Below, piece by piece: positions 25,107-36,893 of a stretch of 64,000 nucleotides of DNA. The notes beneath the pieces were generated by a model, which ran no database searches, was not told the DNA's origin, and saw only the letters and a program-made list of their open reading frames with translations. The stretch spans positions 2,976,001 to 3,040,000 of the forward strand of contig NZ_CP059901.1 in NCBI RefSeq assembly GCF_014127285.1, in the 5' to 3' direction. Position 1 is the first letter of the stretch. Every line of letters starts with the position of its first letter. Position numbers and translations under genes: made by a program. This DNA is from Mumia sp. ZJ1417 (GTDB taxonomy: Bacteria; Actinomycetota; Actinomycetes; Propionibacteriales; Nocardioidaceae).

Positions 25107-25403
25107 GGGGATCGCCTCGCCGGTCGACAAGGCCAGCCCGCCGGCGGCATCCGTCAGGCGCGTCGCCATCGTTGACGTCGCCACATCGTGCGCGAAACAA
25201 CACGAGCCCCTAGGCTCCGTTACCAATCAGTAACGTCCTCGCAAAACTGCCGTGAAGACGTTGCAGCCCGCGCACCCGGGGGACCCTTCAGCGGGCACTG
25301 CCCGCTGCGCCACGCCTCGCTACCGCGAGTGACCGCAGTCGGATTCTCGTCACGTCGCCACGCTCTCGTCGGCGTCGTGCACCCACCGATACAGGAGTCA
25401 CTC
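25107..25403. other. Intergenic region upstream of the lipase
   Basis: 297 bp without a credible gene. It holds TAGGCT (25211-25216), a TAnnnT-type -10 element, immediately followed by the CGTTAC/GTAACG dyad, and the lipase ribosome site AGGAG (25393-25397). The implied 5' untranslated region is about 180 nt and no riboswitch-like fold was recognised. Confidence 0.4.
25218..25235 (+). promoter_or_regulatory. Candidate operator for the lipase gene
   Basis: CGTTAC-CAATCA-GTAACG is a perfect 6-bp inverted repeat with 6-nt spacer lying directly downstream of a TAGGCT -10 element. Its position at the expected transcription start suits a repressor, and its form is typical of TetR-family sites. No regulator is adjacent, so it would be controlled from elsewhere. 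Confidence 0.45.
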
Positions 25404-26738
25404 GTGAAGCAGCTGCACAGACCCCTCATGACCGCGGCCTTGTCCGCGCTCGTCCTCTTCGGCGTCCAGGCGCCCGCCTCGGCGGCCGAGGACACCCCGG
25501 TCGTCTCCCGGGGCATCACCATCCCGACGTTCTACAACCCGCCCACGTCCTTGCCGTCCGCCAACGGCGCCCTGATCCGGAGCGAGCCGCTCACGCTCGG
25601 CCTCAGCCTGCCCGGCCTCAGCGGTCCGCTCCCGGGGACGGCGACCCGGATGATGTACAAGTCGACCGACTCGAACGGCCAGCCCGTCGCGGTGACCGGC
25701 GCCTACATCGAGCCTGCCGCACGGTGGACCGGCAGCGGTCCGCGCCCGCTCGTCGTGCTGGCGCCCGGCACCATGGGCCAAGGCGATCAGTGCGCGGCGT
25801 CGCTCGCGCTCGAGAACGCGCTCGCGCTCAACCTGACCGAGGGCACGGTGTCGGTCGGTTACGAGAACCTCGCCACGTACCGCCTCCTCGCCAAGGGCAT
25901 CGCGGTCGCCGTCACCGACTACGTCGGGCTCGGGGCGACCGACCGGCTGCACACCTACGTGAACCGTGTCGACGAGGGCCACGCCGTGCTCGACGCCGTA
26001 CGGGCGACGCGCTCGCTGACCGGGACCTCGGTCACCGCCTCCTCCCCCGTCGGCCTGTACGGCTACAGCCAGGGCGGCGGCGCGACCGCGTCGGCGGCCG
26101 AGCTCCAGCCGACGTACGCACCGGACGTCACGCTCGCCGGCGTGTACGCGGGCGCTCCGCCGGCTGATCTCGTGAAGGTCCTCCCTGGCATCGATGGCAG
26201 CGCGCTCGCCGCGGCCGCCGGATGGACGGTGAGCGGGCTCGCCCAAGCCAAGCCTGCCCTCCAGCCGATCATCGACAGCTACATCAACGACGCTGGCCGC
26301 GCGGCGCTCGCCGACGTCTCGACGATGTGCGTCGGCGACGGCATCCTCGGCTACCCCTTTGCCAAGACCAAGAGCTGGACCAAGCAGGGCATCTCGCTCG
26401 GCGACGTCATCGCCCGCGAGCCCGCGGTGAAGGCGGCGGTCGACGCGCAGCGCATCGGTAGGATCAAGCCGTCCACGCCCGTGCGCGTCGCCACCGGCGT
26501 CGCCGACGACACCGTCCCGCACGGTCAGGCCCGTCAGCTCGCGGTGGACTGGTGCGCCAAGGGCGCCAACGTCACGTACGAGCCGATCTACCTGCCCAAC
26601 CTCGGTGACAAGATCGTGCTCACGAACCACTTCCTGCCGCTCATCGAGGACCAGGGGTCGGCGATCGGCTGGCTCACGGACCGACTCGAAGGCCGGCGGG
26701 CGTACTCCAACTGCTGGAAGCTGCCGCTGATGCTGTGA
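25404..26738 (+). CDS. Secretory lipase/esterase (LIP family)
   Basis: A 444-residue exported alpha/beta hydrolase. GTG 25404 follows AGGAG and opens a signal peptide (MKQLHRPLMTAALSALVLFG, cleaved after PASAA near 33). MMYKSTDSNGQPVAVTG and RPLVVLAPGTMGQGDQCA (oxyanion region) precede the nucleophile elbow YGYSQGG with Ser222; VATGVADDTVPHGQAR carries the acidic residue and TNHF the histidine near the end. The layout matches the secretory lipase family of fungi and actinobacteria, which cleave triacylglycerols or esters outside the cell. A dyad lies at the predicted promoter. No partner genes. Confidence 0.9.
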   Translation: MKQLHRPLMTAALSALVLFGVQAPASAAEDTPVVSRGITIPTFYNPPTSLPSANGALIRSEPLTLGLSLPGLSGPLPGTATRMMYKSTDSNGQPVAVTGAYIEPAARWTGSGPRPLVVLAPGTMGQGDQCAASLALENALALNLTEGTVSVGYENLATYRLLAKGIAVAVTDYVGLGATDRLHTYVNRVDEGHAVLDAVRATRSLTGTSVTASSPVGLYGYSQGGGATASAAELQPTYAPDVTLAGVYAGAPPADLVKVLPGIDGSALAAAAGWTVSGLAQAKPALQPIIDSYINDAGRAALADVSTMCVGDGILGYPFAKTKSWTKQGISLGDVIAREPAVKAAVDAQRIGRIKPSTPVRVATGVADDTVPHGQARQLAVDWCAKGANVTYEPIYLPNLGDKIVLTNHFLPLIEDQGSAIGWLTDRLEGRRAYSNCWKLPLML

Positions 26739-26787
26739 GGTGACGCGCCGGAAGGCGATCTGGCGCCGTCGGTGGCAGACTCGCCGC

Positions 26788-27699
26788 ATGCCCACCGTCC
26801 TCGTCACCGGCGCCGGTGGTCCTGCAGGGTCCTCGCTCGGTCGTCAGCTCGCCGACCGTGCTCGCGACGGGCGTACGTTGCGCACGATCGGTGTCGACCT
26901 CGACTCTCTCGACGGAGGACCGTTCACCGACACCGCCACGGTCGCCGCCGCGGCCGACCCCGCGTACGCCCCGTCGATGCGTGCGGTCGTCGAGCGCTTC
27001 CGCCCCGACCTCGTGATCCCCACGGTTCAGGACGAGCTCCCGCAGGCGGCCGTCCTCGCGGACGTGATCGCGGAGGCAGCCGCGCCACGCGCCTCGGTGG
27101 TGATCGCGAGTGCTCGCGCCTCCGGCCTCGCCGCGGACAAGCTCCTCACGATGTGGACGCTCGCGAGCGCCGGTGTCCCGGTGCCCGTCCACACGGCAGC
27201 CTCCGAGCTGCCGGACGCGGCCGGCGCGCTCGCGTGGGCCGGCGGACCGGTCGTGGTCAAGCCTCGGGTGTCGCGCGGCGGGCGCGGCGTCTCGGTCGTG
27301 GAGAAGCCCGAGGACCTCGACTGGTCGGCCACCGATGCCTCATGGATCGTGCAGGGCTTCGTCGACGGACCCGAGTACGCCCCGCAGGTCTACCGCTCAC
27401 CACGCACCGGGCTTACGACCGTCGTGGTCCTCGAGAAGACGGTGCTCAAGGAGGGCCGCGTCGGCAACGCGGCCGACGCCGTACGCCTGCCGGACAGCGC
27501 CGTCCCCGATGTCACCCAGATCGCTGCCGCGACCGTCGAGGCGCTCGACCTCGTCGGTCCGGTCGACATGGACGTGCGTCGGGACACGGCCGGCGCGCCG
27601 TACGTGCTGGAGGTCAACGGCCGGTTCGGCGCCCTGTCCGCGCACGCACCCGAGCTGCTCGACCTAGTCCTCGACGAGTGGCTCGGCCCCAAGCCGTGA
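26788..27699 (+). CDS. ATP-grasp enzyme, CarB-like
   Basis: A 303-residue ligase-type enzyme from ATG 26788. An N-terminal Rossmann-like pre-ATP-grasp domain (VLVTGAGGPAGSSLGRQLA, IPTVQDELP) is followed by the ATP-grasp fold: AADKLLTMWTLASAGVPVP, PVVVKPRVSRGGRGVSVV, GFVDGPEYAPQVY, VDMDVRRDTAGAPYVLEVNGRFG with the metal-binding D and E-x-N. It resembles carbamoyl-phosphate-synthase-like proteins that activate a carboxylate with ATP and couple it to an amine. The glycosyltransferase overlaps its stop by 4 nt, so it probably makes or modifies a substrate or substituent for that polymer. The actual substrate is unknown. Confidence 0.85.
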   Translation: MPTVLVTGAGGPAGSSLGRQLADRARDGRTLRTIGVDLDSLDGGPFTDTATVAAAADPAYAPSMRAVVERFRPDLVIPTVQDELPQAAVLADVIAEAAAPRASVVIASARASGLAADKLLTMWTLASAGVPVPVHTAASELPDAAGALAWAGGPVVVKPRVSRGGRGVSVVEKPEDLDWSATDASWIVQGFVDGPEYAPQVYRSPRTGLTTVVVLEKTVLKEGRVGNAADAVRLPDSAVPDVTQIAAATVEALDLVGPVDMDVRRDTAGAPYVLEVNGRFGALSAHAPELLDLVLDEWLGPKP

Positions 27700-28973
27700 G
27701 TGCCTTCCTCGGTGCGCTCGCGACCGTGGTGAGCGTGACCGTGCTCGTGGCAGGTCTCCTCCGGCTGCTCTTCGTGCCGTTCTCGCTGCTGTTCGAGGTG
27801 CGTCACCGCGGCCCCGACGACACGAGACCTGTCGACGTCGGCACGATCTTCACCGAGCCGCCGTTCGTGAGCGTGGTCGTGCCCGCCTACAACGAGGGCG
27901 TCGTCCTCGAGAACTGCCTGCGCTCGATCGCGAACAGCGCCTACGACCGGTACGAGGTGATCTGCGTCGACGACGGGTCCACCGACGACACGTACGCGGT
28001 CGCGCAGGCGGTCGCCGACGAGCTAGGGCCGGTCACGGCGCTCACCCAGGCCAACGCCGGCAAGGGCGCGGCGCTCAACACCGGGATCGCGCACGCTCGT
28101 GGCTCGGTGCTGATGCTCGTCGACGCCGACGGCCTCTTCGGGCCGCACACGATCACGCGCATGCTGCAGGCGTTCCGGCAGGAGGACGTCGGCGCGGTCT
28201 GCGGCAACGACCGTCCCGTGAACCTCGACCGCGTGCAGACCCGGTTCCTGGCGCTGATCAGTCATCTCGGCACGGGCCTCATGCGCCGCGCGATGCACGA
28301 GCTCGGATGCCTGCCGATCGTGTCGGGCAACATCGGGGCCTTCCGCCGTGACGTGCTCGACGTGGTCGGAGCCGTCCGCGAGGACACCGTCGGCGAGGAC
28401 CTCGAGCTCACGTGGCGCGTGTACGGCGTGGGTTACCGCGTCGCGTTCGCCCCGCACGCTCTGCTCTACGCCGAGTCGCCGTCGACCCCGCGCGCGCTGT
28501 GGCGGCAGCGGGTGCGGTGGGCCCGGGGTCTGCTCCAGGTGACCCGACGGCACCGGCGCATGGTCGGCAACCTGAGGTACGGGGCGTTCGGCGCCTTCCT
28601 CGTGTTCAACACCGTCACGCAGATCGTCGTCCCCTTCCTCCAGGTGCTCGCCGTGCTCGTGATCGCCTCGCTCGCGGCGGCCGGCGACGTCCCCGCGCTC
28701 CCCGCGAACCTGTGGACGGCCCTGGTCCTCGTCGGCCTCCCGATCTCCGTCGTCCTGCTCCTCCTCGCGGTCGCGCTCGACCGGGCTCCCCGGGACCTGC
28801 GCTACGTGTGGACGCTGCTGGCCTGGCCCGTCTATTCAGGTGTGATGAGCCTCGTGATGGTGCGCGCAGTCTGGCTCGAGCTGAAGGGAGCCGAGAACCG
28901 ATGGAACAAGCTCGACCGCACCGGGACGGTGTCGGTGGACGGCCTGGTCGACGACTCCGGGGCATCGTCCTGA
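27696..28973 (+). CDS. Membrane processive glycosyltransferase family 2 (PgaC-like)
   Basis: A 425-residue GT2 enzyme starting at GTG 27696. One N-terminal span, then the catalytic domain: VVPAYNEG, VDDGS (D92, D93), LVDADG (DAD 143-145), GEDLELT (catalytic D235) and QRVRW (271-275), the full D,D,D,QxxRW set of processive synthases such as PgaC, hyaluronan and cellulose synthases. Three to four C-terminal spans form the export channel. It would polymerise a UDP-sugar, plausibly UDP-GlcNAc, while exporting the chain. Its last 73 nt overlap the next gene, implying tight co-expression. The sugar identity is inferred from the best family resemblance only. Confidence 0.88.
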   Translation: MSAFLGALATVVSVTVLVAGLLRLLFVPFSLLFEVRHRGPDDTRPVDVGTIFTEPPFVSVVVPAYNEGVVLENCLRSIANSAYDRYEVICVDDGSTDDTYAVAQAVADELGPVTALTQANAGKGAALNTGIAHARGSVLMLVDADGLFGPHTITRMLQAFRQEDVGAVCGNDRPVNLDRVQTRFLALISHLGTGLMRRAMHELGCLPIVSGNIGAFRRDVLDVVGAVREDTVGEDLELTWRVYGVGYRVAFAPHALLYAESPSTPRALWRQRVRWARGLLQVTRRHRRMVGNLRYGAFGAFLVFNTVTQIVVPFLQVLAVLVIASLAAAGDVPALPANLWTALVLVGLPISVVLLLLAVALDRAPRDLRYVWTLLAWPVYSGVMSLVMVRAVWLELKGAENRWNKLDRTGTVSVDGLVDDSGASS

Positions 28974-30172
28974 TCGGCACGCTCGCCGTCGCCGCGGCAG
29001 TGGGTGCCGTGCTGCTGCCCGACAATCCGTCTCCGGAGGACGACGGCCCGCTCCCGACCCTGCGCCCGAGCCCTGCCCCTAGGGAGGTCCGGTCGCTGAG
29101 CGTCGACTTCGGCAGGGTCATCGACCCCGAGACCGACTGGGACGCCGTCTCCGAGCAGCTCGCCGACGCTCACGCGACGACGGTGAACCTCGGCGCCGGA
29201 CGGGTCGAGTTCACCGCGTTCGACTGGTCGGAGCACCCGGACGCTGCCGCCGAGCCCGGCACCGACCACCTCGCGGTCGCGGCACGGATGCTGCGCGAGG
29301 CGCCGGACGGGAGCCCCCGCCAGATCAACCTCATCGTCGACGCCTTCGTCCCGGAGTGGATCAAGGAGGACCCGAGGGTCGCCGGGACGGGCGTGCGTGG
29401 GAGGCGTTCCACCCATGGCGCCTCGGCAACGCAGCTCGCGACCGGCGAGGTCGGCGACCGCCTGGTCGCGTACGTCGCCGCGCTGGGCGAGCGCTACGAC
29501 CCCGCTGCGATCGAGGTCACCGAGCTGTTCTTCAGCGCCTACACCTACGGCGACGAGGACCTCGCCCTCTACCGCGAGATGTCCGCGGAGGCGGACTGGC
29601 CGCGCACCGAGGACGGCGCCATCGACACCGAGTCGCCGCTGATCGGCAGGTGGCGCTCGGAGGTGATCGCCGGACTGCTGGGCCGGATGCGTACGGCCCT
29701 CGACGCCGTGCGGGACGGCGAGGGCCGGCAGATCGGGCTGACGATGGACGTGGGGGTCGACTGGGAGGACCCGGCGTCCGGTCGACCGAAGAGCGGGCAG
29801 GACTACCGGATCCTGCTGTCCTCCGTCCGCGACCTGCGCCTACAGCTGTGGGCATACATCGGCATCCCGCTCCGCCCGCCGGCCGACATCGAGCAGGTCA
29901 CGGCCGCGCTGCGAGACGGCGGGTACGACATGACTCGGTTCCTGGTCTCGGTCGGCCTGTGGGGCGACCGGTCGACGGGCAAGGCGCGCCGGATCACGAC
30001 GACCGCGCTCGACAGCGCCGTACGGAGTGCTGCCACGAACGGGATCACCAATGTCAACGTCACCCCGTACTCGTTGATGACCGCGGGCGACTGGGATGTC
30101 CTCCGGTCCGCGTGGGCCGATACGACTACGTCGACGGGGGCAGCGTCGCCTGTGGATCCGGATCAGCGCTGA
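28901..30172 (+). CDS. Membrane-anchored extracytoplasmic protein, possible TIM-barrel hydrolase
   Basis: A 423-residue protein from ATG 28901 (GGGAG upstream), beginning inside the synthase gene. An arginine-rich N-terminus and one span (IVLIGTLAVAAAVGAVLL, about 20-38) export it; a proline-rich linker follows. The body alternates strands and helices: VRSLSVDFGRVID, TTVNLGAGRVEFTAFDW, INLIVDAFVPEWI, EVTELFFSAYTYGDED, GLTMDVGVDWEDP, LQLWAYIGIP, TRFLVSVGLWGD. This periodicity and the acidic strand ends suggest a TIM-barrel glycosidase-like fold, as in the C-terminal domain of PgaB. I do not recognise a named family, and catalytic residues are not identified. Context argues for trimming or binding the polymer made by the synthase. 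Confidence 0.7.
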   Translation: MEQARPHRDGVGGRPGRRLRGIVLIGTLAVAAAVGAVLLPDNPSPEDDGPLPTLRPSPAPREVRSLSVDFGRVIDPETDWDAVSEQLADAHATTVNLGAGRVEFTAFDWSEHPDAAAEPGTDHLAVAARMLREAPDGSPRQINLIVDAFVPEWIKEDPRVAGTGVRGRRSTHGASATQLATGEVGDRLVAYVAALGERYDPAAIEVTELFFSAYTYGDEDLALYREMSAEADWPRTEDGAIDTESPLIGRWRSEVIAGLLGRMRTALDAVRDGEGRQIGLTMDVGVDWEDPASGRPKSGQDYRILLSSVRDLRLQLWAYIGIPLRPPADIEQVTAALRDGGYDMTRFLVSVGLWGDRSTGKARRITTTALDSAVRSAATNGITNVNVTPYSLMTAGDWDVLRSAWADTTTSTGAASPVDPDQR

Positions 30173-31940
30173 CTGCCGGCGCCTCGCGGGCGTCGGGAAG
30201 ATCGACCGTGACCGTCGTCCCCTCCCGCGGTGTGCTGCGGATCGCCATCGTCCCGCCGTGCGCGGTGACGATCGCGTCGACGATCGAAAGGCCCAGGCCG
30301 AGGCCACGGACCCGCTGCTGCTGCGCCGTACGGGTCCGGAAGAAGCGCTTGGTGACCCGCTCGAGCTCGTCGGCGGTCATGCCGGCACCGTCGTCGGCGA
30401 CCACGAGCTCTGCTCCCCGGCCACCGTCACCGGCGGCGGTCGCGTGGACGGAGACACGGACCGTCCCCCCGCGCGCGGAGAACTTCACCGCGTTCGCGAC
30501 GAGGTTCTCGACGACCTGTCCGAGTCGTTCGGGGTCGGTCACGAGAGACACCCCCTCCGGTGCGTCGACCGTCACGGTCACGCCGGCCGTGTCGGCGGTG
30601 GGCATCAGATTCGCGACCGATCGTCGGACCGTCTCCGTAGCGTCGAGAGGACGGGCGTCGAGGGCGAAGGTCCCCGCCACGACCTGCACGCTGAGGAGAA
30701 GGTCCTCGACCAGCCGGAGCAGCCTCTGAGCGTTGCGTTCGACCACGTCGAGCGAGTGGTTCTGCGCGACGGTGAGCGCGCCCTCGTCGGACCGCAGCAG
30801 CTCGACGTACCCCATGATCGACGCCAGCGGCGTCCGCAGCTCGTGGCTGACGAGCCCGATGAACTCGTCCTGGAGGCGCTCGGCCTCCTTCCGCTGGGTC
30901 AGGTCGGTCGCGACGAAGAGGTATCCGTCCGCCTCAGCGTCGTCGAGCAACGACCGGCGCGTGACCGTCACCTCGACCGGCAGGGACGAACCGTCGAGGC
31001 GCACCAACGTCCACTCCCGGTGCTCCGGACGCCCCACGCCGGCCTCCCCGACGAGGCCCTGGAGGAGGTCGACAGCCGTGCTCCCCAGCCCGCGAGCCGC
31101 GGCAGCACCGCGGAGGCCCTCGGGGTCGAAGAAGTCGGTGACCGACGATCCGGTCAGCACTGCGTCGGTGCCGCCCAGGAGCACACGAGCACCTGGGCTG
31201 TTGATCATGATCGTCCCGACCTCGTCCGTCCCGACGATGAGCTGCTCGGTGGCGGCCTCGACCACACTCGCCAGCAGGTCGCGTGACTGCTCGAGCCGAG
31301 CGGAGAGCGCCTGCAGCCGGTCGCGGCTCCCTTCGAGCGAGTGCATCGTCGCGACCTGCTGCCGACGCAGCGACTCGAGCGTCGCCGCCTGCTCGCGCAG
31401 CCGCTGCGTGACGGCGGACGCACCGGTGCCGACCAGGAACGCGCACGTGGTCACCACGATCGCCCGGGTCGGCGCCGACGGGGAGACGTCGGGACGGACC
31501 GACAGGAACGCCGGGAGCATGGTCACGACCCCGGCCCCGGCGGTCCCGAGCGCGAGCCCCAGGTAGCCAGGCTGGAGTGCGAGGTTGATGACCGGCAGGA
31601 AGAGCATGCTCGAGAAGTAGCTCGCGGCCTCCCCGGAGCCGTACGCGAGTCCGCCCAGGGCCGCGATCTGCGCGAGGGGTAGCGCGTATTGCCACCAGTG
31701 CGGCCACCGCTCCCACGCGCCGAACAGGGCGACCAGCTGCACGACGATGACGATGCTCACGGCGACGACCGTCGACCGCGGGTGCGGGATCGTCCCTCGA
31801 ACGACCTCCACCGCGACGACGATCCCGAACACGCCCGTGAACGGGAGTTCGCGAAGTCCGACCATCTCGGGGTCGAACTGGCTGCCGAAGACCCGGGTCA
31901 GCCGACGCAGCCGTGACCTCGGGCGAGCCTGCGTCGTCAC
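30126..31940 (-). CDS. PAS-containing sensor histidine kinase
   Basis: A 604-residue kinase. Five or six membrane spans occupy residues 35-175, a coiled coil 178-225, and a PAS domain about 222-350 (LIVGTDEVGTIMINSPGA, HREWTLVRLDGSSLPVEVT, FVATDLTQRKEAERLQ). HisKA follows with GLVSHELRTPLASIMGY (H366) and the ATPase domain with LVANAVKFSA, VADDGAGM and GLGLGLSIVDAI. Its GTG overlaps the stop of the receiver-PIG-L gene by 4 nt, so that fusion protein is its probable phosphorylation partner. The 3' end overlaps the exported-protein gene on the other strand by 47 nt. Confidence 0.93.
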   Translation of the reverse strand: MTTQARPRSRLRRLTRVFGSQFDPEMVGLRELPFTGVFGIVVAVEVVRGTIPHPRSTVVAVSIVIVVQLVALFGAWERWPHWWQYALPLAQIAALGGLAYGSGEAASYFSSMLFLPVINLALQPGYLGLALGTAGAGVVTMLPAFLSVRPDVSPSAPTRAIVVTTCAFLVGTGASAVTQRLREQAATLESLRRQQVATMHSLEGSRDRLQALSARLEQSRDLLASVVEAATEQLIVGTDEVGTIMINSPGARVLLGGTDAVLTGSSVTDFFDPEGLRGAAAARGLGSTAVDLLQGLVGEAGVGRPEHREWTLVRLDGSSLPVEVTVTRRSLLDDAEADGYLFVATDLTQRKEAERLQDEFIGLVSHELRTPLASIMGYVELLRSDEGALTVAQNHSLDVVERNAQRLLRLVEDLLLSVQVVAGTFALDARPLDATETVRRSVANLMPTADTAGVTVTVDAPEGVSLVTDPERLGQVVENLVANAVKFSARGGTVRVSVHATAAGDGGRGAELVVADDGAGMTADELERVTKRFFRTRTAQQQRVRGLGLGLSIVDAIVTAHGGTMAIRSTPREGTTVTVDLPDAREAPAVSADPDPQATLPPST

Positions 31941-32992
31941 GCGTGCTCTCTCACGGAATCGGCCTCCGCCGTCGCCACGACCTCCGGGGCCGCCACCAGC
32001 TCCGCCGCGCGCACCGTCTCGAGGGGCTCGACGTCACGCGCCGGGCTGAAGCGCGACCAGTAGCGCGCCGTCGCCCTCACCAGCTCGGGCTGCACGTAGT
32101 CGCGATGACGTTGCGACGCGTACGCGGCGAGCATCCTCAGTTTGGTCTCCACGTAGCCCTCGACGTCGATGAAGCGGTTGGGGCGGAACTCCACGGTGCT
32201 CGACGGGCTCTGGTAGCACCACAGGCCAGGGACCCGCCGCGCGGCGACCTGCACGGCCTCGTGGACCGCACGGTGGTCCTGGTGCCGGTCTCGCGCGCTG
32301 TGCGTGTAGACGCGGTCCGGCTGCACCTCGGCGACGACCTCCTCGATCGCCGTGATGACCCCGTCGGCCGGGTCGAGATAGGTGTCCTGGAAGTCCAGGT
32401 GCACCAGACGTGCGCCGACGACCGCGGCCGCGGCGAGCGCCTCCTCGTGACGCACCGCCGCCTCGCCCCCGATCGCGCCGCCCGAGAGCGTCATGATCAC
32501 CAGCTGGTCGCCAGCGGCCGCGTGTGCCGCGAGCGTCGCGCCGATCCCGATCTCGACGTCGTCGGGGTGCGCGCCGACCGCCAGCACGACCGAACGGGAC
32601 CGCGAGCGGACCAGCTTCGCCTCCTGCGCGAGCTGGGTCGCCCGGGCCGCGAGGTCCGTGGGCGCGATCGGCTTGACCAGGAACTCGTCGGCGTCGCTGC
32701 GCAGGGCCTCGACCGCGTACGAGACGACCCCGTGCGCGGTGAGGATCACGACCGGGACACCGGGGGCGAGCATCCGCACCTGGGGAAGGATGTCCAGCCC
32801 CGAACGTCCGGGAAGCTCGATGTCGCTCACGATCACGTCGAAACGGTCGACGGCGAGGACCGTGAGCGCCTCCTCCGCGTCGGAGGCGATGGCGACCTCC
32901 ATGTCCGCGAAGCGCTCGAGCGCGATCCGGGCGAAGTTGGCCGCGTCCGGATCGTCCTCGATCACCAATGCCCGGAGCTTCTGGACGTCCAC
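31937..32992 (-). CDS. Response-regulator receiver fused to PIG-L (LmbE) deacetylase
   Basis: A 351-residue fusion. GTG 32992 is preferred over TTG 33025 because GGGGGAG lies immediately upstream. Residues 4-120 are a receiver: ALVIEDDPD (D13, D14), IVSDIELPG (phospho-acceptor D57), LTAHG (T85), FLVKPIA (K107). Residues about 134-330 are a complete PIG-L domain: LAVGAHPDDVEIG (zinc ligands in AHPDD, 141-145) and THSARDRHQDH (H231, D235, H237, H240). PIG-L enzymes remove the N-acetyl group from GlcNAc-type sugars. No DNA-binding domain is present, so phosphorylation by the overlapping kinase would directly switch an enzyme rather than transcription. The polymer-synthesis genes opposite suggest the substrate pathway. 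Confidence 0.9.
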   Translation of the reverse strand: MDVQKLRALVIEDDPDAANFARIALERFADMEVAIASDAEEALTVLAVDRFDVIVSDIELPGRSGLDILPQVRMLAPGVPVVILTAHGVVSYAVEALRSDADEFLVKPIAPTDLAARATQLAQEAKLVRSRSRSVVLAVGAHPDDVEIGIGATLAAHAAAGDQLVIMTLSGGAIGGEAAVRHEEALAAAAVVGARLVHLDFQDTYLDPADGVITAIEEVVAEVQPDRVYTHSARDRHQDHRAVHEAVQVAARRVPGLWCYQSPSSTVEFRPNRFIDVEGYVETKLRMLAAYASQRHRDYVQPELVRATARYWSRFSPARDVEPLETVRAAELVAAPEVVATAEADSVREHA

Positions 32993-33085: not shown

Positions 33086-33940
33086 TCAGCCGATCGCCGC
33101 CACCGTGGGAGGTGGGAGGTCCACCCGAGCCCGGTCGGTGCCGGTGGTGAGCGGGTACGAGAGGTGCTGGTGGACCAGCAGCCACTTCCCGTCTCGCCGC
33201 CGGAAGACGCGTGTCCCGCGCGACCAGGTCGTGACGCTGTCCCCCTCCGCCTGCGGGACCTCGACGCGGTCGAGCCCCCACGCCACGGCGACGTCGTCGC
33301 GGACGACGATCTCGGGGTCGACCACCGTGAAGTCGACCTTCTCCTGCGTCGCCTCCAGCCCCCGACGGCAGTTCTCACGGACGGCGTCGACGTCGGGGAG
33401 CACGTGCGGCTCCTCGTACTCGTACGACGCCACGTCCCTCGCGATGTCGGCCATCAGGCCGTCGAGGTTCTTGGCGGCGGTGTCGTCGTGCCAGCGTCGC
33501 AGCACCGCCGCGATGTCAGCCTCGCCGGCGCGGTCGCGCCGGTCACGGTCGTCGGCGAACGAGTGGTGCTCGTGCGCGATGCGCCACCGTCCCTCGACCC
33601 GGCGCAGGCCGAGGGTGAGGCGCAGCCGCTGGTCGGGGTGCTCGTCGTGGGCCCCCGTCGAGCGGCAGACGACGAGCCCGTGCGCGAACGCGACGTCGTC
33701 TCCCGCCGTGATCTCCAGGGACTCGAGGGCGAACTGTCCGTCGCCGCGCTGCCAGGCGAGGAACGCAGGCCACGAGTCGCGGTACGCCTGCATGCCGCGG
33801 TTGCCCTCGTACGGCGGAGGGACGTCGTACATCACGACGTCGTCGGTGTGGTCGGCGAGCACGGCGTCGAGGTCGGTCCCACGGTCGACGGCGTCGATCC
33901 AGCGGGTCACCAGGGTGCGGATGTCGGATTCGTGGTCCAT
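33086..33940 (-). CDS. Tandem SnoaL-like (NTF2-fold) protein
   Basis: A 284-residue cytoplasmic protein made of two SnoaL-like domains: residues 1-130 (IRTLVTRWIDAVDRGTDLDAVLADHTDDVVMYDVPPP in outline, ending RWRIAHEHHSF) and about 140-270 (IAAVLRRWHDDTAAKNLDGLMADIA, ending KWLLVHQHLSYPL). Such folds are cup-shaped and serve as isomerases, cyclases or ligand binders; no catalytic residues can be assigned. The gene is divergent from the SnoaL-tailed ECF sigma factor with only 31 bp between, so the two share a control region. It may be a regulatory target or a cofactor. Confidence 0.87.
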   Translation of the reverse strand: MDHESDIRTLVTRWIDAVDRGTDLDAVLADHTDDVVMYDVPPPYEGNRGMQAYRDSWPAFLAWQRGDGQFALESLEITAGDDVAFAHGLVVCRSTGAHDEHPDQRLRLTLGLRRVEGRWRIAHEHHSFADDRDRRDRAGEADIAAVLRRWHDDTAAKNLDGLMADIARDVASYEYEEPHVLPDVDAVRENCRRGLEATQEKVDFTVVDPEIVVRDDVAVAWGLDRVEVPQAEGDSVTTWSRGTRVFRRRDGKWLLVHQHLSYPLTTGTDRARVDLPPPTVAAIG

Positions 33941-33971: not shown

Positions 33972-34958
33972 GTGGAAGGAACCTCGCAGAGCGACGAAAC
34001 TCATCGCGACGACCACGAGGACGACCTCGCGAGCGCTCGCGCCGGCGACGAGGACGCCTTCGCGCGCCTCGTCACGCCGTACCGCCGCGAGCTGCGCCTC
34101 CACTGCTACCGGATGCTCGGCTCGACCGCGGACGCGGCGGACGCGGAGCAGGAGACGCTGGTCCGCGCGTGGCAGGGCCTCGCACGCTTCGACGGCCGGC
34201 ACCTGCGGGCCTGGCTCTACCGCATCGCCACCAATCGCTGCCTGACGCTGAGCGAACGACGCGGCCGCCGCGAGCTCCCCGTCGCTCTCGGCGCAGGCGC
34301 GACCGAGGTCGCGTGGCTCGAGCCGCTGCCCGGAAGCTGGCTCGAGGCATCCCCCGAGGATCAGACGGTCGACCGCGAGACCGTACGCCTTGCGTTCGTC
34401 GCCGCGTTGCAGCACCTCCCGGCGTCGCAGCGCGCCGTCCTCCTGCTGCGCGAGGTGCTCGCGTTCCGCGCAGCCGAGGTCGCCGGCATCCTCGACCTCA
34501 CCGTCGCCGCGGTGAACAGCCTGCTGCAGCGGGCGCGCGCCGCAGTCGCGGACGGGCTGCCACCGGCACCAGCGTCGTACGACGGAGGGCTCGACGCACT
34601 GGCCGACCGCTACGCCCGTGCGTGGGAGGCGGGCGACGTCGACCAGATCGTGGCGCTGCTCGCCGACGACGTCCGCTACTCGATGCCGCCGCTCCCCCGT
34701 TGGTACGCAGGTCTTGCCGACGTCACCGCGTTCCTGCGCAGCGGCCCGGTGCGGGAGTCCTGGCGGTTCCTGCCGACGACCGCGAACGGGCAGCTCGCGT
34801 TCGGGACGTATATGCGCGACGCCGAGCGCGGGGAGTTCCGACCGGGCGGGCTGGACGTCCTCACGGTCGAGGACGGACGAGTCACCGAGGTGGTCGCCTT
34901 CCTCGAGGCGGACTTCACCGCGTTCGGGCTGCCGGTGTCGCTCCCCGTGCAGCGGTGA
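33972..34958 (+). CDS. ECF sigma factor with C-terminal SnoaL-like domain
   Basis: A 328-residue SigG/SigJ-like sigma factor from GTG 33972. Sigma-2 ([41 protein letters not shown] in outline, then [11 protein letters not shown]) and sigma-4 ([39 protein letters not shown]) take residues 18-190; the last 130 are SnoaL-like ([47 protein letters not shown]). In this sigma group the extension replaces an anti-sigma factor and regulates activity, possibly by binding a ligand. No anti-sigma gene is adjacent, which fits. Convergent with the downstream response regulator (4 bp gap). Confidence 0.9.
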
Positions 34959-34962
34959 CGCC

Positions 34963-35625
34963 TCAGCCGGTGCCGCGGAGGTAGGTCAGGACGGCCGACA
35001 CGCGCCGGTCGCTCGCAGGGTCCAGGTCGAGCTTGGCGAAGATGCTGCCCACATGCTTGCGGACGGCGGCCTCACTCACGAACAGCGCCTCGGCGATCGA
35101 GCCGTTCGTCCGCCCCTCGGCCATCAGCGACAGGACCTCCCGCTCCCGGGCGGTGAGCGCGGACAGAGGCCCGTCGTCGCGACGACGCGCGAGCAGCTGC
35201 CGGACGACGTCGGGGTCGACGACCATCCCGCCGTCGGCGACCGTCCCGAGGTCGCGGAGGAACTCGGCGACGTGCCCGACGCGGTCCTTGAGGAGATAGC
35301 CGACCCCGCCCCCGTCGGTGGACTCGAGAAGCGTCGGGAGGTAGGCGTCCGCGACGTACTGCGACAGGACGAGGAGAGCCACGTCGGGATGGGTCTCGCG
35401 GATCGTCGCCGCCGCACGCAGCCCCTCGTCGGAGTGGTCCGGCGGCATCCGCACGTCGGTGATCACGACGTCGGGCGGCTCGCGGCGCACGTACGCGACG
35501 AGCGCGTCACCGTCCTCGACGGCCGCGATCACGCGGTGTCCCGCGCGCTCGAGGATGCCGACCATGCCCTCGCGCAGCAGCGCCGAGTCCTCGGCGAGGA
35601 CGATCGTCAGGGCTCGATCTGGCAC
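34963..35625 (-). CDS. LiaR-like LuxR-type response regulator
   Basis: A 220-residue regulator: receiver (IVLAEDSALLREGM, VVITDVRMPP with the phospho-acceptor, YLLKDRVG) and LuxR output domain (LTAREREVLSLMAEGRTNGSIAEALFVSEAAVRKHVGSIF in outline). GTG 35625 is favoured because GGAG lies 5 nt upstream; an earlier GTG at 35631 overlaps that site. The gene overlaps the kinase by 19 nt. The pair is divergent from a MacB-like ABC transporter, a common LiaRS-type arrangement for envelope stress. Confidence 0.92.
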   Translation of the reverse strand: MPDRALTIVLAEDSALLREGMVGILERAGHRVIAAVEDGDALVAYVRREPPDVVITDVRMPPDHSDEGLRAAATIRETHPDVALLVLSQYVADAYLPTLLESTDGGGVGYLLKDRVGHVAEFLRDLGTVADGGMVVDPDVVRQLLARRRDDGPLSALTAREREVLSLMAEGRTNGSIAEALFVSEAAVRKHVGSIFAKLDLDPASDRRVSAVLTYLRGTG

Positions 35626-36893
35626 GGGCACTCCATCCGCAGCCGGGTCGGTCCTCCGACGGGACTCGACACCTCCAGGGTGCCACCGAGCGCATCGAGC
35701 CGAGTCACGAGACCTGCGAGCCCGCTCCCCGGCTCGACCGTGGCTCCGCCGACGCCGTCGTCGGTGACCGTCAGGACGAGCCGGTCGTCACGGACCCACG
35801 CGACCACCGCACCGCTGCGGGCGTCGGCGTGCTTGACCACGTTGGTGAGGCCCTCGCTCGCGACGAAGTAGGCCGCGGCCTCGATCGGCGGGGGCAGGCG
35901 TACATCCAGGCTGATCTCGACCGACACGGGGATCGGCGTACGGTCCGCCACCTCACGGACGGCCGCGGCGATCCCGTGGTCGACCAGCACCCGCGGGTGG
36001 ATGCCACGGACCGCGCTGCGCAGATCGGCCAGCGCCTCCTCCGCTTCGTGGTGCGCCTGCTTCACGAGGTCGAGCCCCTCCCCTGGAGGGACGTCCATCT
36101 CGGCCCGACCCAGGGTCATCGTCAGCGCCACGAGACGCTGCTGCACCCCGTCGTGCAGGTCGCGCTCGATGCGGCGCCGCTCGGTCTCGAAGGCGTCGAC
36201 GAGGTTGATCCGCGAGCGGCGCAGCTCGGCGACGTGCGCCGCCAGCCTCTCCTCCGTGGGGCTGAGAAGGAGGCGGGCGAGCGCGGCCTGGCCGGCTGCT
36301 GCCGCGGTGAGGAGGTACGCGCTGATGACGAGGGCGATCGGCGTGGCCACGAGCGCGAACGGCAGCGCCTCCACCGTGCTGTCGAAGGTCCACCCGAACA
36401 CCATGACCTGGTCGTACGCAGCACCCAACGGCGACAGGGCGAGTCCGCCGACGAAGGTGGCGACGAACGAGACGAGCACCGCGTCGACGATCCACAGGAC
36501 GACGGCGAGGAGGATCGCGTAGCCGAGCTCGCGCCACGACCCCGGCTCCTTGCGGACCTGTCGCAGGCGCGCGAGCAGCGTGAGCCCCGTGAGGTCGGGG
36601 TGAGGGCTGAGCAGGGCGGGCTCCCCCGGCGACTGCATGAGTCGCAGGCGACGCCTCTCGATCGCCCCCACCGCGACACCGAGCGCAGGGATCGTGGCGA
36701 GCACGAACACTCCGATGACGAGGATGCTGGTCACGACGCCGACGGCGACGACGACGAGGAACACGGCGAGGACCAGGACGCCGACGAGCGCCGACGACGC
36801 CAGGTAGGCGAGCGAGCGCCATGGCCACGCCGAGAAGAGGAACCGCGCGGGGTTCCCCGTCAGCGACGACCAGACCGTGCCCGAGCGACTCAC
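35607..36893 (-). CDS. Sensor-domain histidine kinase, LiaS-like
   Basis: A 428-residue kinase from GTG 36893. The N-terminal 210 residues are the 'putative sensor' membrane domain with four spans and an intervening hydrophilic segment (LGYAILLAVVLWIVDAVLVS, LSPLGAAYDQVMVFGW). HisKA_3 follows with IERDLHDGVQQRLVALTMTL, then the ATPase domain (SEGLTNVVKHADA, VTDDGVGGA, GLAGLVTRLDALGG). It belongs to the actinobacterial group of kinases beside ABC exporters. Its promoter region is shared with the divergent ABC operon and contains a perfect dyad. Confidence 0.92.
   Translation of the reverse strand: MSRSGTVWSSLTGNPARFLFSAWPWRSLAYLASSALVGVLVLAVFLVVVAVGVVTSILVIGVFVLATIPALGVAVGAIERRRLRLMQSPGEPALLSPHPDLTGLTLLARLRQVRKEPGSWRELGYAILLAVVLWIVDAVLVSFVATFVGGLALSPLGAAYDQVMVFGWTFDSTVEALPFALVATPIALVISAYLLTAAAAGQAALARLLLSPTEERLAAHVAELRRSRINLVDAFETERRRIERDLHDGVQQRLVALTMTLGRAEMDVPPGEGLDLVKQAHHEAEEALADLRSAVRGIHPRVLVDHGIAAAVREVADRTPIPVSVEISLDVRLPPPIEAAAYFVASEGLTNVVKHADARSGAVVAWVRDDRLVLTVTDDGVGGATVEPGSGLAGLVTRLDALGGTLEVSSPVGGPTRLRMECPCQIEP

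Follow-up and report, generated by a model that had tools for sequence, protein, structure and literature searches.

Response regulators that act through an attached enzyme include the CheB methylesterase, the cyclic-di-GMP enzymes and PorX, and two-component control of surface glycans is usually described as proceeding via transcription or cyclic-di-GMP. PIG-L enzymes act on several N-acetylglucosamine (GlcNAc) compounds, and those represented by BshB, MshB and the diacetylchitobiose deacetylases are stand-alone enzymes. The 64,000-nucleotide stretch of Mumia sp. ZJ1417 analyzed here (contig NZ_CP059901.1, positions 2,976,001 to 3,040,000, called the window below) encodes a fusion protein in which a receiver is followed directly by a PIG-L domain, and the gene overlaps that of a histidine kinase. 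As in other regulators with enzymatic output, a receiver is joined to a catalytic domain, but the output in this case is a PIG-L de-N-acetylase; in fold and zinc-site motifs the protein resembles BshB, MshB and the diacetylchitobiose deacetylases, to which it adds an N-terminal receiver. We consider it somewhat better than an even bet that the fusion is a response regulator with glycan de-N-acetylation as its output, phosphorylated by the neighboring kinase and working in an exopolysaccharide-type pathway with a membrane family-2 glycosyltransferase (GT2) and an ATP-grasp ligase.

In the part of PMC12471899 available, CheB and PdeR are named as examples of enzymatic output, and a passage of PMC5847659 describes receivers on standard metabolic enzymes, in line with the first-pass annotation of the window, which took such regulators to be known. 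The terms PIG-L, LmbE and deacetylase are missing from the main text of PMC5847659, and PIG-L is missing from the available part of PMC12471899. The pig-L gene of Clostridioides difficile is stand-alone and merely neighbors a response-regulator gene in the excerpt of PMC12613277. Within this partial coverage of the literature (titles and abstracts on architecture, pathway and regulator censuses, with few subscription papers), metabolic enzymes with a fused receiver have precedents and a receiver-PIG-L fusion was not found.

The fusion protein and its conservation

Both domains of the fusion protein were recognized by Pfam with scores well beyond their cut-offs (Table 1). The receiver contains EDD at residues 12 to 14, which includes the acid pair D13/D14, together with the acceptor D57, T85, the switch aromatic F104 and K107. 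The PIG-L site comprises AHPDD at 141 to 145 (H142, D144, D145) and HSARDRHQDH at 231 to 240 (H231, D235, H237, H240), among which H142, D144, D145, H237 and H240 presumably hold the zinc-binding and catalytic roles. The first-pass annotation had described the receiver (D57, T85, K107) and the zinc site (AHPDD; H231/D235/H237/H240) as intact, and the residues are located where it placed them. It had also claimed that there is no DNA-binding domain, and Pfam returned the two domains only, with no third family, DNA-binding domains included, at E <= 0.001. Judged by Pfam, conservation and the predicted model, the protein therefore has the receiver fold, acid pair, acceptor Asp, Thr/Ser and Lys of response regulators; it scores above the PIG-L profile cut-off with the motif residues of the PIG-L/LmbE family kept, and it has the receiver joined directly to an enzyme domain, with no DNA-binding domain found, that marks regulators with metabolic-enzyme output. 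The top NCBIfam match was BshB1, at 86.4 bits against an equivalog cut-off of 182.5, which places the protein outside that family as defined. A purine-rich stretch, GAGGGGGAG, lies just 5' of the GTG start codon.

Relatives were taken as the best 80 of 518 matches at E 0.001 in a scan of a genome collection, giving 81 proteins with that of the window. Both domains lie within one open reading frame in all 80 relatives, all 81 proteins are matched by the receiver part and the PIG-L part of the window protein when each is used as a query, and Pfam Response_reg and PIG-L are both present in the 61 proteins scanned (E <= 0.01). That the join might be a sequencing artifact, raised in the first pass as a ground for refutation, is excluded by the occurrence of the same fusion in 80/80 best relatives from six phyla: by the tree labels these are Actinomycetota, Pseudomonadota, Bacteroidota, Rhodothermota, Gemmatimonadota and Myxococcota (L079 is unlabelled). 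Several relatives are metagenome bins, a label that Kangiella sp. HZ709 and Marinicella sediminis lack.

Identity to the window protein ranges from 36 to 68% (60 of the other 80 compared), and mean column identity is 45% in an alignment of 61. Across the 81 proteins, D57 is invariant, D14 is kept in 78 and D13 in 76, position 85 is Thr in 77 and Ser in 4, position 107 is Lys in 79 and Arg in 2, and an F or Y occupies position 104 in 74. In the PIG-L domain, H142, P143, D144, D145, H231, H237, D239 and H240 are found in all 81 and D235 in 80, with a single D235E. The scan favored the patterns AHPDDVEI, HQDHRAVH or DADEFLVK, and D57 lies outside these patterns.

The distribution of the fusion is patchy, with matches at 1e-50 in 6 of 58 genomes (its own included), 3/6 in the same genus; the relative G153, considered below, is among the six. 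The description of the fusion as unusual was a fair one; to call it unique would be wrong, given the 80 relatives compared and the 518 matches counted at a loose threshold. No match was found at 1e-30 in a plasmid collection, and among the 50 matches listed to viral structures, receivers and LmbE proteins were matched separately and none was described as both. At one locus (L047 14783-15790) a second match to the fusion protein, 35% identical, lies about 6 kb from the first and adjoins a kinase match.

The predicted model of the fusion (mean predicted local distance difference test [pLDDT] 92.5, predicted template modeling score 0.76, with 61 of the 81 sequences as input) places the last receiver helix (residues 111 to 132) two residues from the first PIG-L strand (135 to 140); in the tail, residues 333 to 343 and 349 to 351 have a pLDDT below 50. 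Among solved structures, the PIG-L part is matched by BshB and diacetylchitobiose deacetylases and the receiver part by separate receivers, and none of the 50 matches listed is described as a receiver plus PIG-L. The length from K107 to H142 is 35 to 37 residues in 66 of the 81 proteins and 29 to 34 in 15, such that the domains always abut and the spacing is not fixed. A fixed-length rigid linker, considered as a sign of allostery, was unsupported at this range of 29 to 37 residues.

Table 1. Features at and around the receiver-PIG-L fusion gene, in window positions
Feature	Position	Strand	Description
Receiver-PIG-L fusion gene	31937-32992	minus	GTG start at 32992, TGA stop 31939-31937, 351 residues
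Receiver (Response_reg) domain, residues 9-117	32642..32968	minus	Pfam E 3.2e-25
PIG-L deacetylase domain core, residues 137-250	32243..32584	minus	Pfam E 2.1e-25, 90.1 bits against a cut-off of 28.2
Histidine kinase gene	30126-31940	minus	HisKA and HATPase_c clear in Pfam
GTGA overlap (4 nt), kinase start codon on fusion stop codon	31937..31940	minus	sequence
ATP-grasp ligase	26740-27699	plus	ATP-grasp_3; PRK12767/carbamoyl-phosphate-synthase-like, below those NCBIfam cut-offs
Membrane family-2 glycosyltransferase (GT2)	27696-28973	plus	overlaps ATP-grasp gene by 4 nt; DDGSTDD, DAD, ED and QRVRW motifs kept
Barrel protein, one N-terminal hydrophobic segment	28901-30172	plus	predicted glycoside-hydrolase barrel; convergent with kinase gene

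The overlapping histidine kinase

The kinase has four hydrophobic N-terminal segments, an HELRT motif at 366 and conserved ATP-binding motifs. The first pass had described the fusion as cotranslated with a PAS histidine kinase; the overlap of the two genes and the kinase domains are in line with this, and the PAS domain falls marginally short, at 26.5 bits against a Pfam cut-off of 27. The gene overlap and the recurrence of kinase genes near the relatives (63 of 80 loci) point to the fusion as a probable phosphorylation target of its partner kinase. At its other end the kinase gene converges with that of the barrel protein, and the coding 3' ends overlap by 47 nt (30126 to 30172).

A recurrent set of glycan-type genes

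The genes near the fusion were compared across the 80 loci with neighbor models seeded from the same loci (E 1e-10). An ATP-grasp gene was found in 69, a GT2 gene in 62, a PHP-type hydrolase gene in 52 and, as above, a kinase gene in 63; in 20 evenly spaced 17-kb control stretches of the window's own genome the corresponding counts were 0, 1, 0 and 3. In 60 of the 80 loci the ATP-grasp gene starts at most 400 nt downstream of the fusion on the same strand, ATP-grasp and GT2 occur together in 60, and 46 have a same-strand kinase gene no more than 7 kb downstream. Locus L048 has the order fusion, ATP-grasp, PHP, GT2, single receiver, kinase. A carbon-nitrogen hydrolase (L066 6982-7794) and a class I/II aminotransferase (L051 9353-10546) also recur near the fusion, in 10/80 and 9/80 loci, respectively.

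The window and the loci L001-L004, L006 and L026 form one group in the tree (support 100/99), with diverged ATP-grasp and GT2 proteins. All six relatives in this group encode the barrel protein, and no PHP match was found in their six loci. When the window was compared with 12 common-type Cellulomonas loci, its ATP-grasp protein (12/12 matched) and GT2 (11/12) were 30 to 38% identical and its fusion 57 to 62% identical. The same enzyme classes are thus present in diverged versions around a conserved fusion, and the deacetylase accompanies both classes in two versions. When the common-type ATP-grasp protein was searched for across the phylum, 3 of 296 genomes had a match at 1e-40; one of these (L114) adjoins a receiver-PIG-L fusion, a PHP gene and a GT2 gene, and the other two had no fusion within their short flanks. 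Misses are likely in this search, because scoring covered only 7 candidates per genome and the diverged ATP-grasp protein of the window itself went undetected.

In the window, the ATP-grasp, GT2 and barrel-protein genes are all plus-strand genes that point at the kinase gene. Neither this set nor the strand of the fusion gene was mentioned in the first-pass annotation. The true start of the ATP-grasp gene is possibly 48 nt further in, and a secretory lipase gene (25188-26738; LIP family, E 2.3e-72) lies just before it, for which tblastn against the 80 related loci gave no match covering more than 30% of the length. The best family for the GT2 was PgaC/IcaA, at 175.4 bits against a cut-off of 422.3, which leaves it outside that family as defined. 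The model of the barrel protein (pLDDT 71) is nearest in fold to the C-terminal (hydrolase) domain of PgaB (Z 24.8, root-mean-square deviation 3.8, 322 aligned), followed by glycoside hydrolase family 42 (GH42; Z 23.4). No significant Pfam match was obtained for this protein (best GHL10, E 0.17), nor any significant match to sequence profiles of solved structures (best E 0.19, to a binding protein), and a profile comparison with Escherichia coli PgaB was not significant. Since the fold of PgaB itself is also near GH42 and GH35, according to the part of PMC5933820 available, the ranking of folds alone cannot settle the family of the barrel protein. Membership in GH153, the family of the PgaB domain, is a possibility raised by the fold ranking, in which PgaB came first but not decisively; the Pfam, structure-profile and PgaB comparisons were all nonsignificant. 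Relatives of the barrel protein were found in 6/147 genomes of the order (its own included) and in 6 of the 80 related loci. In the relative G012, the fusion, ATP-grasp, GT2 and barrel-protein genes all occur together.

The set shares several parts with the poly-N-acetylglucosamine (PNAG) systems encoded by pgaABCD and ica, namely a PgaC/IcaA-like GT2, a membrane-anchored protein with a PgaB-like predicted fold and a deacetylase. It differs from them in the PgaC score under the cut-off, the lack of a significant sequence link between the barrel protein and PgaB, the presence of an ATP-grasp ligase and the absence of the carbohydrate esterase family 4 (CE4) deacetylase, for which PF01522 had no match in the genome at E <= 0.001 and matched 11/14 control genomes. 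The deacetylase of the window, moreover, is fused to a receiver and has no visible export signal. Membership in a PNAG (pga/ica) system was rejected on the PgaC/IcaA cut-off and the CE4 deacetylase.

In a genome of the same order, G019 (L127 5663-9024), a GT2 gene is followed by a gene for a PIG-L protein with N-terminal hydrophobic segments, as judged from its sequence, and then by an ATP-grasp gene. The PIG-L protein has no receiver match, and the hydrophobic segments lie where the receiver would be. In Kangiella (L056 4983-7824), genes for a heme-NO-binding (H-NOX type) protein (Pfam E 2.1e-30), a hybrid kinase and a LuxR regulator run divergently to an array of fusion, ATP-grasp, GT2 and TPR-protein genes; the TPR protein appears to end in an outer-membrane barrel. 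Known H-NOX/hybrid kinase systems have cyclic-di-GMP enzymes or transcription factors as their outputs. The Kangiella locus resembles these gammaproteobacterial systems in its heme-NO-binding protein, hybrid kinase and LuxR regulator, and differs in that a candidate neighboring output is a glycan deacetylase. The divergent genes suggest nitric oxide as an input at this locus. The hybrid-kinase cluster occurs in 5/80 loci, and the heme-NO-binding protein was tested by Pfam in L056 only.

A proposed mechanism and its alternatives

In the mechanism that we favor, the membrane-bound PAS histidine kinase from the overlapping gene would phosphorylate D57, and the ensuing change in the receiver would alter the activity or the placement of the attached zinc-dependent PIG-L (LmbE) type de-N-acetylase with no transcription step. 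The deacetylase would act in a glycan pathway with the membrane GT2 synthase and the ATP-grasp ligase, where it would presumably deacetylate GlcNAc units from the cytosolic side and so expose their amino groups; because receivers work in the cytosol, this step should precede or accompany export. Enzymes of the ATP-grasp family couple carboxylates to amines, and re-acylation of the freed amines is therefore a natural guess for what the ligase may do. In this way the cell could use phosphorylation to reset the charge or substitution that a surface polymer carries. What the sequences show directly is the fusion, its conserved catalytic and phospho-acceptor residues, the overlap with a kinase gene, the recurring gene set and a homologue without a receiver in such a set; the phosphotransfer, the substrate, the role of the ligase and the sign and speed of control are what we infer. 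The deacetylase seems to be a pathway enzyme and the receiver its exchangeable control part, because the gene set recurs and because hydrophobic segments replace the receiver in the G019 set.

A receiver fused to a modifying enzyme would link signal and glycan chemistry directly, and the fusion, found beside glycan-synthesis genes in many unrelated bacteria, suggests that cells can alter the chemistry of a surface polymer by signaling to the enzyme rather than to the gene. With its defined list of enzymes, the gene set represents a polymer pathway yet to be explored, and the receiver-less G019 and G153, which has at most a decayed receiver, could serve as natural controls. It is possible, though doubtful, that these parts make up a widespread and undescribed exopolysaccharide-type pathway in which a phosphorylation-gated cytosolic PIG-L enzyme deacetylates GlcNAc units, the ATP-grasp ligase adds another acyl or aminoacyl group to the amines so freed and the kinase rewrites the polymer in real time, with receiver, membrane anchor and decayed receiver being interchangeable controls of one enzyme. 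The first-pass idea that phosphorylation controls sugar deacetylation without transcription is supported in part, by the receiver residues, the deacetylase-type domain, the overlap with the kinase gene and the glycan-type gene set; G012, G153, the alphaproteobacterial exceptions and the loci with a separate receiver speak against it as a universal rule.

Several observations weigh against the favored mechanism. The stretch before the PIG-L domain of G153 (L128 4722-6014) is not a Pfam receiver; its second half is weakly receiver-like (about 10 bits), with no acceptor Asp that could be assigned, and the PIG-L site looks intact, and neither an ATP-grasp nor a GT2 gene was found in 14 kb (E 1e-5). 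G109, in which the fusion is beside a kinase match, likewise lacks ATP-grasp and GT2 matches in 16 kb (E 1e-5), both are missing from 9/80 loci, and G012 has no kinase of the window type in 16 kb. Three alphaproteobacterial members (L076, L077 and L080) are altered at the acid pair, Thr or Lys, with D57 kept, and the receiver score of L076, 23.9, lies under the Pfam cut-off of 30.2. A cluster of single-domain receivers (its representative matching Response_reg) is encoded in 9/80 loci and forms a competing phosphorylation target, so that the kinase may have another target or more than one; the LuxR regulator in Kangiella is a competing target as well. A single rigid helical coupling between the domains is unlikely because the length from K107 to H142 varies, and the CE4 deacetylases of PNAG systems are exported, unlike the cytosolic enzyme envisaged here. 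As to the counts, conservation at the AHPDDVEI, HQDHRAVH and DADEFLVK sites is partly built in because the scan patterns selected for them (which does not apply to D57), the conservation figures rest on the best 80 relatives only, and the neighbor models were seeded from the loci in which they were counted, with control stretches from one genome.

Some of these observations would fit other explanations. The receiver might serve placement rather than allostery, docking the deacetylase on the membrane kinase or the GT2, with phosphorylation releasing or recruiting it and catalysis itself unregulated. The hydrophobic segments in the receiver's place in G019 suggest that nearness to the membrane matters, the N-terminal segments of the kinase are hydrophobic and the variable linker fits docking better than rigid coupling. 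G019 is the one receiver-less cassette seen, however, and T/S85 and K/R107 in 81/81 proteins, with the aromatic at 104 in 74/81, suggest that the phospho-switch works, which docking may also exploit; we regard this explanation as unlikely, if worth keeping in mind. We find it distinctly improbable that the PIG-L domain has a scavenging or other small-molecule role, with a small GlcNAc metabolite as its substrate as in BshB and MshB, with the glycan genes being merely frequent neighbors. The top NCBIfam match and the best solved folds are indeed of BshB type, and the nine loci and the fetched G109 and G153 stretches without ATP-grasp and GT2 agree with this role, but the BshB1 score is far under its cut-off, the GT2 and ATP-grasp genes occur together in 60/80 loci against 1/20 and 0/20 control stretches, and both flank the PIG-L gene in G019.

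A structural remnant, a receiver that supports folding or dimerization only and whose phosphorylation has no effect, would account for G153, with no recognizable receiver and an intact-looking PIG-L site, and for the three altered alphaproteobacterial members, L076 with its low score among them. The retention of D57 in 81/81 proteins across six phyla, at a mean column identity of 45% (61 aligned), and the kinase matches in 63/80 loci against 3/20 in the control would be unexpected for a remnant, which makes this explanation very improbable.

Other genes upstream of the fusion

Upstream of the fusion gene, a gene encoding a sigma factor with a C-terminal SnoaL domain (33972-34958), which we take to be ECF41-like, is divergent from a gene for a double SnoaL protein (33086-33940). 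The window also encodes a separate two-component pair at 34963-36893, some 2 kb upstream of the fusion; its regulator combines a receiver with a LuxR-type part, and its kinase has HisKA_3 and Sensor domains.

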